A DNA stretch of 33,374 bases, taken from Parcubacteria group bacterium. Its GTDB lineage: Bacteria > Patescibacteriota > Patescibacteriia > Magasanikbacterales > GCA-002688135. The position numbers were made by a program, and so were the translations under genes. Of the stretch, positions 11,430-30,268 are shown piece after piece (position 1 is the first letter of the stretch; each line of letters opens with the position of its first letter). The notes under the pieces were generated by a model that saw nothing but the letters and a program-made list of their open reading frames with translations, did not search any database and had not been told where the DNA came from. The stretch is from contig NZCD01000015.1 in the NCBI GenBank assembly GCA_002688135.1, forward strand, positions 1 through 33,374. Reading direction: 5' to 3'.

Positions 11430-11496
11430 GTCATTCCGGCGTAGGCCGGAATCCATCTTACTAAATGGCATGGATCCCGGCCTACGCCGAGATGAC
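11430..11496. repeat. REP/BIME-like inverted pair
   Basis: GTCATTCCGGCGTAGGCCGGAATCCAT ... ATGGATCCCGGCCTACGCCGAGATGAC; 27-nt arms with 3 mismatches. Confidence 0.85.
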
Positions 11497-22412: not shown

Positions 22413-22420
22413 AATTTTTA

Positions 22421-22532
22421 AGTTTGTAGTTGGTAGTGAGTAGTGAGTAGTAAGGTATCGGCGAAGCCGATGTATTAATACGTCGCCTTTGGCGACACAT
22501 TTCTACTCACTACTCACTACCAACTACAAACT
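22421..22532. repeat. Intergenic periodic-word inverted repeat, element A
   Basis: Perfect 30-bp arms AGTTTGTAGTTGGTAGTGAGTAGTGAGTAG (22421-22450) / complement (22503-22532); loop has ATCGGC-GAA-GCCGAT and GTCGCC-TTT-GGCGAC hairpins. Confidence 0.95.
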
Positions 22533-22536
22533 AATA

Positions 22537-22927: not shown

Positions 22928-23656
22928 CTATTCTTCAGATGATTCAGTTGCCTCGGGTTCGGCTGATCCACCGAGCCCGTCTTTCACGATACTAAAGTGA
23001 TCTACCAAAATCTGCGATGCTTGTTTTAATGCTTCTTCTGGCTCGATCGTTCCATCTGTTTCAATATCCAAAATCAATCGTTCATAATCTGTCACATCAC
23101 CAACACGAACATCTTCTGTTTTATATCCAATATTCACAACAGGATTATAAATTGAATCAACAGCAATTGTTCCTAATTCCAAATCTTTTGTCTCACGCTC
23201 CTCAACAGGAATGTATCCACGTCCTTGCTCAACTAGAATATCCATTGAGAATTCCAACTTATCATCAGTCAAAGTTGCAATAACCAATTCTGGATTAGCA
23301 ACTTCAGCATCTGCATTAGCAGCGATATCTCCAGCAGTAACTTGTTTCTTGCCTTTAACATCAACTTTCAATCGAGCTTCTGGAGTATGCAATTTCAAAT
23401 TCAACTGCTTTAAGTTCAACAAAATTTCTACTACATCTTCTTTCACACCTTCCATTGAAGAAAACTCATGTGAAACACCTTTAATTTTCACTGCTGTTAC
23501 AGCAGCTCCGGGCAGTGATGACAATAATACGCGTCGCAACGCATTTCCTAATGTCTGTCCGTAGCCAAAATAACATGGCTCAACAATAGCGCGCGCATGA
23601 GCCTTTGACTCACCCGCTTCGATCTTTACTGTTGATGGATGCAGTAATTGTTCCAT
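22928..23656 (-). CDS. rpoA: RNA polymerase alpha subunit, N-terminal domains only
   Basis: CYFGYGQTLGNALRRVLLSSLPGAAVTAVKIKGVSHEFSSMEGVKEDVVEI; ends after the NTD with an acidic tail. Confidence 0.97.
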   Translation of the reverse strand: MEQLLHPSTVKIEAGESKAHARAIVEPCYFGYGQTLGNALRRVLLSSLPGAAVTAVKIKGVSHEFSSMEGVKEDVVEILLNLKQLNLKLHTPEARLKVDVKGKKQVTAGDIAANADAEVANPELVIATLTDDKLEFSMDILVEQGRGYIPVEERETKDLELGTIAVDSIYNPVVNIGYKTEDVRVGDVTDYERLILDIETDGTIEPEEALKQASQILVDHFSIVKDGLGGSAEPEATESSEE

Positions 23657-23704
23657 AGATTTGGATCAAATAATATAATTTTTGTTTTGTATTTATGTTG
23701 ATGG

Positions 23705-23830
23705 TAGTGCCTTGGCATTTTGCACAAGGTTTGAGATAAAATCATTGAGAAGTGAGGAGGGATACTATCAGCTATCGCGACGAGCTTCGAAATGATTTTA
23801 GCCAAACGTTGGGCAAAAGGGCTGGCACTA
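23705..23830 (-). promoter_or_regulatory. Long imperfect RNA hairpin in the rpsD-rpoA spacer
   Basis: Arms 23791-23830 and 23705-23746 pair: TAGTGCC/GGCACTA, TTTTGC/GCAAAA, GTTTG/CAAAC, TAAAATCATT/AATGATTTTA with small mismatches between. Confidence 0.7.
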
Positions 23831-23850
23831 TTATCAAGATGAATGCATTG

Positions 23851-24471
23851 TTATCGTGAGTAGAACTCAATAATTTGTCCTGCGTTGAATGATTTATCAA
23901 AATCAGCTTCAGTAACTTCACTAACAACTTTTCCGCTCATAGCAGCAACATCAAGCGTAAGCCATGATGGAAGTGTCATGTTTTCCAATCTTCCTGCAAT
24001 AGTATCACCAAGTTTCCCTTTGCTGATTTTCTCTTTTACGCTAATAATCTGTCCAACTGATACTTGATAAGAAGGAATATTCAACATTTTTCCATCAACC
24101 AATATGTTTCCATGTCCAACCATCTGACGAGCTGCACGACGTGTCGGAGCAAGCCCTAATCGATACACAGCATTATCTAAACGACCCTCAAGTAACTTTC
24201 TCAAATTGATACTGGTATTTCCTTTATGGGTTGTTGCAGTCGCAACATACTTACGAAACTGTTTTTCAAGAATATTATATAAAGCACGCGCTTTTTGCTT
24301 CTCCATTAATTGCTTTCCATAATCAGTTTGACGACGACGTTTTGCAGCCTTAAGAGGACCATGTTGTCCAGGAGGAGTTTGGCGTCGTTTTACCGCACAG
24401 CGAGGACGACCGCAGACTGATTCTCCGAACTGGCGACATACTTTACATTTCATTGCTACTTTTGAAGGCAT
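23851..24471 (-). CDS. rpsD: Ribosomal protein S4
   Basis: CKVCRQFGESVCG; LEGRLDNAVYRLGLAPTRRAARQMVGHGNILVDGK. Confidence 0.97.
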   Translation of the reverse strand: MPSKVAMKCKVCRQFGESVCGRPRCAVKRRQTPPGQHGPLKAAKRRRQTDYGKQLMEKQKARALYNILEKQFRKYVATATTHKGNTSINLRKLLEGRLDNAVYRLGLAPTRRAARQMVGHGNILVDGKMLNIPSYQVSVGQIISVKEKISKGKLGDTIAGRLENMTLPSWLTLDVAAMSGKVVSEVTEADFDKSFNAGQIIEFYSR

Positions 24472-24480
24472 ATTTGTTTA

Positions 24481-24540
24481 GTTTGTAGTTTGTAGTGAGT
24501 AGTTTGTAGTCGAGTTTCTACTCACTACCAACTACGAACC
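24481..24540. repeat. Intergenic periodic-word inverted repeat, element B
   Basis: GTTTGTAGTTTGTAGTGAGTAG (24481-24502) versus CTACTCACTACCAACTACGAAC (24518-24539), two mismatches. Confidence 0.85.
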
Positions 24541-24551
24541 ACCCACTGACG

Positions 24552-25713: not shown

Positions 25714-25742
25714 AGTATAGTAGATAGGCAGTTTTCTGTCAA
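25714..25742 (-). promoter_or_regulatory. Ribosomal-protein operon promoter
   Basis: TTGACA (25737-25742)-N17-TATACT (25714-25719) upstream of rpmJ. Confidence 0.85.
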
Positions 25743-29307: not shown

Positions 29308-29336
29308 AGAGTAGTACATGACGCACCGCGCGTCAA
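29308..29336 (-). promoter_or_regulatory. mnmA promoter with leaderless geometry
   Basis: TTGACG (29331-29336)-N17-TACTCT (29308-29313), 8 nt to ATG at 29299. Confidence 0.7.
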
Positions 29337-29343
29337 TGTGGCG

Positions 29344-29460
29344 AGCTTTTAGCTGTTAGCTTTCAGCTGTCAGGAAATGAGGCGAGCAAAGCTCGCAATT
29401 AAAAAACGTCGCCTCTGGCGACACATTGTCTAAAAGCTAACAGCTAACAGCTGAAAGCTC
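29344..29460. repeat. Intergenic periodic-word inverted repeat, element E
   Basis: Arms gagcttttagctgttagctttcagctgtcag / ctaaaagctaacagctaacagctgaaagctc; core hairpins GCGAGC-AAA-GCTCGC and GTCGCC-TCT-GGCGAC. Confidence 0.9.
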
Positions 29461-29462
29461 AA

Positions 29463-30104: not shown

Positions 30105-30107
30105 ATG

Positions 30108-30266
30108 TTAGTTTGTAGTTTGTAGTGAGCAGTTATTTAGTTTGTAGTTTGTAGTGAGTAGAAATGTGTCGCCGAAGGCGACAATCTATAAACATCGCTT
30201 CGCGATACATTCACTACAAACTACCAACTACTCACTACAAACTAACAAGTTATCAACTACAAACTA
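30108..30266. repeat. Intergenic periodic-word inverted repeat, element D
   Basis: TAGTTTGTAGTTTGTAGTGAG words on the left and complements on the right, with core hairpins GTCGCC-GAA-GGCGAC (30168-30182) and ATCGC-TTC-GCGAT (30194-30206). Confidence 0.9.
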
Positions 30267-30268
30267 AA

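Follow-up and report, generated by a model that had tools for sequence, protein, structure and literature searches.

Background

Correia (NEMIS) elements in Neisseria and ERIC (IRU) elements in enterobacteria are non-autonomous sequences of approximately 100-200 bp, with inverted repeats and target duplications, that lie mostly between genes; their transcripts make long stem-loops and NEMIS RNA has been proposed to be a substrate of RNase III (PMC2229807). RUP elements in Streptococcus pneumoniae are also non-autonomous and are proposed to be moved in trans by the IS630-Spn1 transposase, while the Rickettsia palindromic elements (RPEs) include inserts in RNA genes, among them that of RNase P RNA (PMC2229807). 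Certain Borrelia plasmid repeats are described as conserved RNA stem-loops with many compensatory changes, specific to Borrelia and partly tied to surface-protein genes (PMC2674063).

The present analysis concerns a hairpin in a stretch of 33,374 nucleotides (contig NZCD01000015.1, positions 1 to 33,374, hereafter the window) from a Patescibacteria genome of 1.05 Mb. On the minus strand the genes run infA-rpmJ-rpsM-rpsK-rpsD-gap-rpoA-rplQ-rplM-rpsI. The reading frame of rpsD, the gene for ribosomal protein S4 (23851-24471, minus strand), had tblastn matches in 30 order-level loci, and that of rpoA, the gene for the RNA polymerase alpha subunit (22928-23656, minus strand), was present in 56 of 57 relatives. 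An earlier note had read the hairpin in the gap between them as a possible autoregulatory RNA, responsive to S4, that could uncouple rpoA from r-protein expression, and had offered a small MITE-like insertion as the alternative. S4 is the repressor of the alpha operon in E. coli, and the classical S4-regulated leader is expected upstream of rpsM. A strong promoter-like site, TTGACA-17-TATACT (11 of 12 positions), was seen at 25714-25742 on the minus strand, ahead of rpmJ-rpsM, in the place expected for such a leader.

Results

Extent, fold and strand of the hairpin

All of the arms listed in the earlier note were found within the 194-nt rpsD-rpoA gap and the hairpin is real, although the extent assigned to it was too short. 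The part described there, TA-flanked TAGTGCC ... GGCACTA, lies at 23705-23830 with no strand implied, and the exact pattern TAGTGCC-N97..127-GGCACTA occurred once in the genome. The RNA fold of the whole element (plus strand, 23688-23847, 160 nt) had 62 pairs, the outermost being 23688/23847. The pairing starts 4 nt past the rpsD stop codon and fills the gap. These limits are those of the pairing and are only putative as ends of the transposon in so old a copy.

The apical region of about 44 nt was not a plain loop and contained the most conserved part of what is described below as a family of hairpins. Within the core matched by covariance models (23726-23810, plus strand), the two strands of a tandem-G·A module, GTGAGGAGG at 23752-23760 and CGACGAGC at 23778-23785, were invariant in the seven founding copies of the family, and between them lay an apical stem-loop (23761-23777) whose sequence varies among copies with compensatory changes.

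The hairpin does fold on the minus strand, as had been claimed, but the better fold was on the plus strand, antisense to the operon. The predicted RNA folding energy was -75.8 kcal/mol on the plus strand and -43.1 kcal/mol on the mRNA strand, the latter (23680-23860) compared with a mean of -24.0 (sd 3.4) for shuffled sequences (z -5.6). The z-scores of the hairpin on the plus and minus strands were -9.0 and -6.0 as RNA, and -9.2 and -4.8 as DNA. G·U pairs on the plus strand turn into A·C mismatches on the minus strand. Other palindromes of the window folded nearly equally on both strands, so the asymmetry belongs to the rpsD-rpoA hairpin itself.

Two other identities for the gap sequence were discarded. 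There was no T-run beyond either arm and the hairpin was absent from the output of a terminator scan, as against an intrinsic terminator, and the gap held just short overlapping reading frames of 35-59 aa, as against a hidden gene.

The window also contains, between genes, other palindromes made up of TAGTTTGTAGTGAGTAG / AGCTGTTAGCTTTCAGCTG units (22413-22536, 24472-24551, 29327-29462 and 30105-30268), and two further gaps in this ribosomal gene cluster are among their sites; they are strand-symmetric and lie outside the hairpin family. A further palindrome, GTCATTCCGGCGTAGGCCGGAATCCAT (11430-11496), is flanked by reading frames with WIPAYAGMT/DPGLRRDD-like stretches and is presumably a repeat common in many bacteria.

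The rpsD-rpoA spacer in relatives

The comparison genomes were relatives at the level of the order, none from the same family. The spacer in 28 of them was mostly 8-60 nt long, with one of 80 and one of 93 nt; a single value of 343 was an alignment failure inside rpsD. No comparable hairpin was present in these 28 spacers, which the earlier note had proposed to align, and the loci of the same relatives gave no match to a covariance model from which the window copy had been left out. When the 160-nt hairpin is subtracted, the remaining spacer would be about 35 nt, like that of the relatives, and the rpsD-rpoA hairpin is very likely an insertion.

These results bear directly on an S4- or rpoA-specific autoregulatory RNA. 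The position between rpsD and rpoA and the role of S4 as repressor in E. coli speak for such an RNA. However, the structure is absent in relatives and recurs at 27 unrelated loci of the same genome (see below), the conserved strand is antisense, nothing in Rfam, the alpha-operon leader included, matched the window at gathering score, and the classical S4 target is the leader before rpsM. The proposed S4-responsive uncoupling of rpoA was rejected on these grounds, and we give it almost no credence.

A dispersed family of hairpins

Whole-length BLASTN of the hairpin found nothing in its own genome, in phages or in plasmids. Taken alone, this null result gives the false impression of a unique feature; the copies were revealed only by a covariance model. 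The BLASTN search for other copies that had been suggested thus failed within the genome but succeeded phylum-wide, where the apical part matched a distant Patescibacterium, G377, also within a long hairpin, and exposed the family. The motif GTGAGGAGG-stem-CGACGAGC occurred three times in the source genome and four times in G377, and an alignment of these seven founding copies (A1, plain MAFFT) was used to build covariance model R1.

R1 detected 28 copies in the 1.05-Mb genome (E<=1), 24-25 of them strong. Copies were present in at least 38 of 380 genomes sampled phylum-wide, about a tenth; the counts of this survey are lower bounds because few candidates were scored per genome. In the order, nine of 86 genomes had copies, G001 having 37. 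The window copy scored 78.8 bits on the plus strand and 13.1 bits on the minus strand. Since R1 had included the window copy, the remaining six founding copies were used for a second model, R2, which recovered the window copy with 53.1 bits (E 1.1e-12) as the sole match in the window.

The copies in the source genome had a mean identity of only 53%. The nearest relative of a copy was found within the same genome for 29 of 30 matches in the source genome, 11 of 11 in G377 and nine of nine in G001. A search of the hairpins against Rfam 15 gave only sub-threshold matches of miRNA-type and similar families. Among open papers searched in full text, none joins Patescibacteria with such elements; an earlier description is possible, and the family is apparently undescribed.

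Several further candidates were rejected. The apical motif had 110 matches in viral contigs, near the number estimated for chance, and none of the 80 listed loci that were folded had the family architecture. Pattern or BLAST matches in G150 (GC-rich, without the family fold) and G065 (a lone 24-nt match) were judged to be chance.

Conserved structure and covariation

Between its ends, an element of the family is a single rod-like hairpin, some 160-250 nt long, in which tandem G·A pairs lie close to the apex. The conserved pairing register is U·G, G·A, A·G, G-C, G·A, A·G, G-C, and another G·A/A·G step follows on the outer side at a distance of five pairs; in the window, 23778-23785 against 23752-23760 reads G·A, A·G, G-C, G·A, A·G. 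Columns of the 5' strand of the module were mostly 66-99% conserved in 95 copies, two being less so. Values in the conserved part included A 0.99, A 0.98, A 0.95 and G 0.91, while the surrounding stems vary freely but pair.

In the 95 copies, all 28 modelled pairs had two-sided changes. Standard pairs occupied 92.3% of the cells, compared with 61.9% in shuffled alignments and at most 48.3% when partners were slid, and none of 500 shuffles matched any covariation measure. This alignment, A2, was aligned to the model and hence leans towards it, but the outcome was the same in the seven founding copies of A1, a plain MAFFT alignment.

If templated repair or arm-to-arm conversion, rather than selection, kept quasi-palindromes perfect, apparent compensatory changes would arise in any hairpin. 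Such conversion predicts that mismatches are erased and that the two strands are symmetric, whereas fixed mismatches, the tandem G·A pairs and bulges, lie at the same positions in the copies of many genomes, and the remaining mismatches are biased towards G·U on one strand. Homogenisation by templated repair was rejected because the fixed mismatches persist; we regard it as highly improbable.

Selection on one strand

In neutral decay of a hairpin, transitions yield G·U and A·C mismatches in equal number. Arm mismatches were counted from an alignment blind to wobble pairs, and the ratio of G·U to A·C was 206:59 in the copies of the source genome and 177:88 in copies elsewhere. Every untied copy of the source genome had more G·U than A·C. 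The outer arms, which the model does not see, gave 138:31. Insertions antisense to both neighbours gave 61:10, and sense insertions had a weaker bias (28:13). The pooled p-values are overstated because copies share ancestry, and the argument lies in the consistency across copies and genomes.

The excess of G·U over A·C implies selection on one single strand. The pattern points to source lineages that were selected to fold on one strand, as RNA or as single-stranded DNA. The bias is evidence for the source lineages and not for selection on every resting copy: singleton changes in young G001 copies were six to G·U and four to A·C.

Copies inside or near RNA genes

Two copies in the source genome lie within RNA genes. 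One splits a tRNA-Ile(TAT) pseudogene (L216:1416-1733, G000:C24) directly upstream of an intact tRNA-Ile(TAT). The other (G000:C22:2979-3063) lies in sense orientation within the sole RNase P RNA gene found in the genome, rnpB (L205:1011-1727, G000:C22:2489-3205), which is 717 nt long and, at 110 bits, passed the gathering score. The site is the P15/L15 region, which in the class A model, as in some bacteria, carries helices P16-P17; the two relatives checked had just a short loop there. As the core is intact, the RNA probably accommodates the insert by lengthening a helix; its excision is a less probable alternative.

A second rnpB insert of about 140 nt, at P12, had a predicted folding energy of -83.1 kcal/mol on the opposite strand versus -53.8 kcal/mol, and is perhaps another old hairpin insertion. 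Another family copy (L212, G000:C23:1816-1899) sits on the opposite strand to a 16S rRNA gene, some 320 nt past the gene's 5' end.

The present family resembles RPEs in having a copy inside rnpB, but its copies are mainly intergenic, whereas RPEs are noted for inserting in frame into proteins.

The sense-oriented copy within rnpB is one of the observations expected if the hairpins were a functional RNA, a structured gene product or a processing site acting in trans or in cis, that spreads by duplication and whose fold is kept at each locus for a cellular job. The very strong compensatory change, the strand-specific tolerance of G·U, the conserved tandem-G·A module and the retention of the fold in copies that have diverged to 53% mean identity are others. 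The distribution and history of the copies, described next, tell against such an RNA.

Evidence for mobility

The copies of the source genome lie in both orientations relative to genes, without a common neighbour. Near-identical copies, absent from the source genome, were present in G001, G142, G313, G400 and G039 at different loci, which suggests recent movement there and, on this sequence evidence, that the elements may be mobile at present. The near-identical copies in G313, G142, G400 and G001 were often located at contig ends, as is the case for repeats that break assembly.

Target duplications were read from the young copies of G142, G377, G400 and G001. Terminal inverted repeats were GAGCCTGTTCAAAATCTCA at both ends in G142 and G377, GAGCCTGTT in G400 and GGGACTGTCGCC in G001. 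When G400 copies were compared, the exact ends proved to be GAGCC...GGCTC and the duplication TAA. Six of 11 G377 copies were flanked by a perfect duplication, either TAA or TTA, as were G142 copies. The duplications in G001 were 5 bp long (ATAGT, ATTAT, ACTAT, TTAAT, ACACT, ATAAA, ATAAT and AGTAT).

An agnostic search with the G142/G377 terminal repeat returned hairpins and one 690-bp element in G142 with the same termini, GAACCTGTTCAAAATCTT, a TTA duplication and a broken transposase of the IS5 family (PF13340, 75 bits). PF13340, the only transposase family searched, was absent from 11 other carriers, the source genome included, so partner transposases elsewhere are missing or of another family. 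The duplication length differed by subfamily, 5 bp in G001 and 3 bp (TNA) in G377, G142 and G400, and more than one transposase would therefore be needed; it looks as though several transposase systems had each captured one and the same hairpin core.

Thus, the elements are short (160-250 nt), non-coding and dispersed (28 copies in the source genome, 37 in G001), and copies in other genomes have terminal inverted repeats and target-site duplications; ends in common with an autonomous transposon were found solely in G142, where the IS is broken. The MITE-like insertion that had been the second choice of the earlier note is supported by the dispersed copies, inverted repeats, target duplications, split tRNA gene and transposon with the same ends.

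The functional RNA with a job at each locus is contradicted by the two orientations and varied neighbours, the bursts of identical copies with target duplications, the patchy presence in 38 of 380 genomes and the G001 singletons, which have no clear pairing preference. We consider it unlikely.

Discussion

Very likely, the rpsD-rpoA hairpin is an aged and partly degraded copy from a MITE-like, non-autonomous Patescibacteria family that was moved in trans and whose fold was selected on one strand. The short terminal inverted repeats would be acted upon in trans by DDE transposases, generating the target duplications; an IS5-like transposase is the candidate mover of the G142 subfamily. Against this explanation, no autonomous partner was found in the source genome or in 10 other carriers when PF13340 was sought, and the two lengths of target duplication would call for more than one transposase. 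The one-strand fold would matter through a transcript or single-stranded DNA. Our best guess is that a folded transcript is bound or processed by a protein that acts on double-stranded RNA, such as RNase III; alternatively, the fold may keep insertions within transcribed genes harmless. At the present locus, the element would have landed just past rpsD with the conserved strand antisense to the operon, and any local effect would be incidental, for instance if RNase III cut the weaker hairpin of the mRNA between the two genes.

The family appears to work like known bacterial hairpin MITEs (Correia/NEMIS, ERIC, RUP; PMC2229807). With Correia/NEMIS and ERIC/IRU it shares small size, inverted repeats, target duplications and long stem-loops, and the hairpin is a candidate RNase III substrate. 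No sequence relation to these elements was detected, and the Patescibacteria copies, in another host phylum, are divergent yet covarying, with one strand selected and an apical tandem-G·A module. The module, the one-strand selection and an extreme divergence with the fold kept appear, from sequence comparison, to set the family apart from known MITEs. In contrast to RUP, the sole partner found is IS5-like (PF13340), with 3-bp TNA duplications. The abstract of the Borrelia report mentions neither a tandem-G·A module nor transposon ends (PMC2674063). The G142 remnant resembles IS5-family elements of the DUF4096 type and has the terminal repeat and TNA target duplication of the hairpins, but the body of the hairpin does not derive from a transposase gene by deletion; the transposase of the remnant occupies the place of the hairpin.

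A transposon that moves as double-stranded DNA offers no obvious reason for structural selection on one strand. A tentative and rather less probable reading is that the elements are a phylum-wide mobile RNA whose spread depends on the one-strand fold and the tandem-G·A module, rather than passive palindromic MITEs; such an RNA might, for example, be bound by a protein, fold out harmlessly or be excised from host RNAs like RNase P RNA.

On the preferred reading as a MITE-like family, it is unusual, among elements assumed to move as double-stranded DNA, that one strand of a transposon is selected for its fold. The rnpB copy suggests a route by which inserts become part of an essential RNA. Lone hairpins in operons call for caution before they are read as autoregulatory sites. 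An apparently undescribed repeat family, which a covariance model recognises despite 50% sequence divergence, is added to the Patescibacteria, a group with reduced genomes in which abundant mobile DNA would not be expected.
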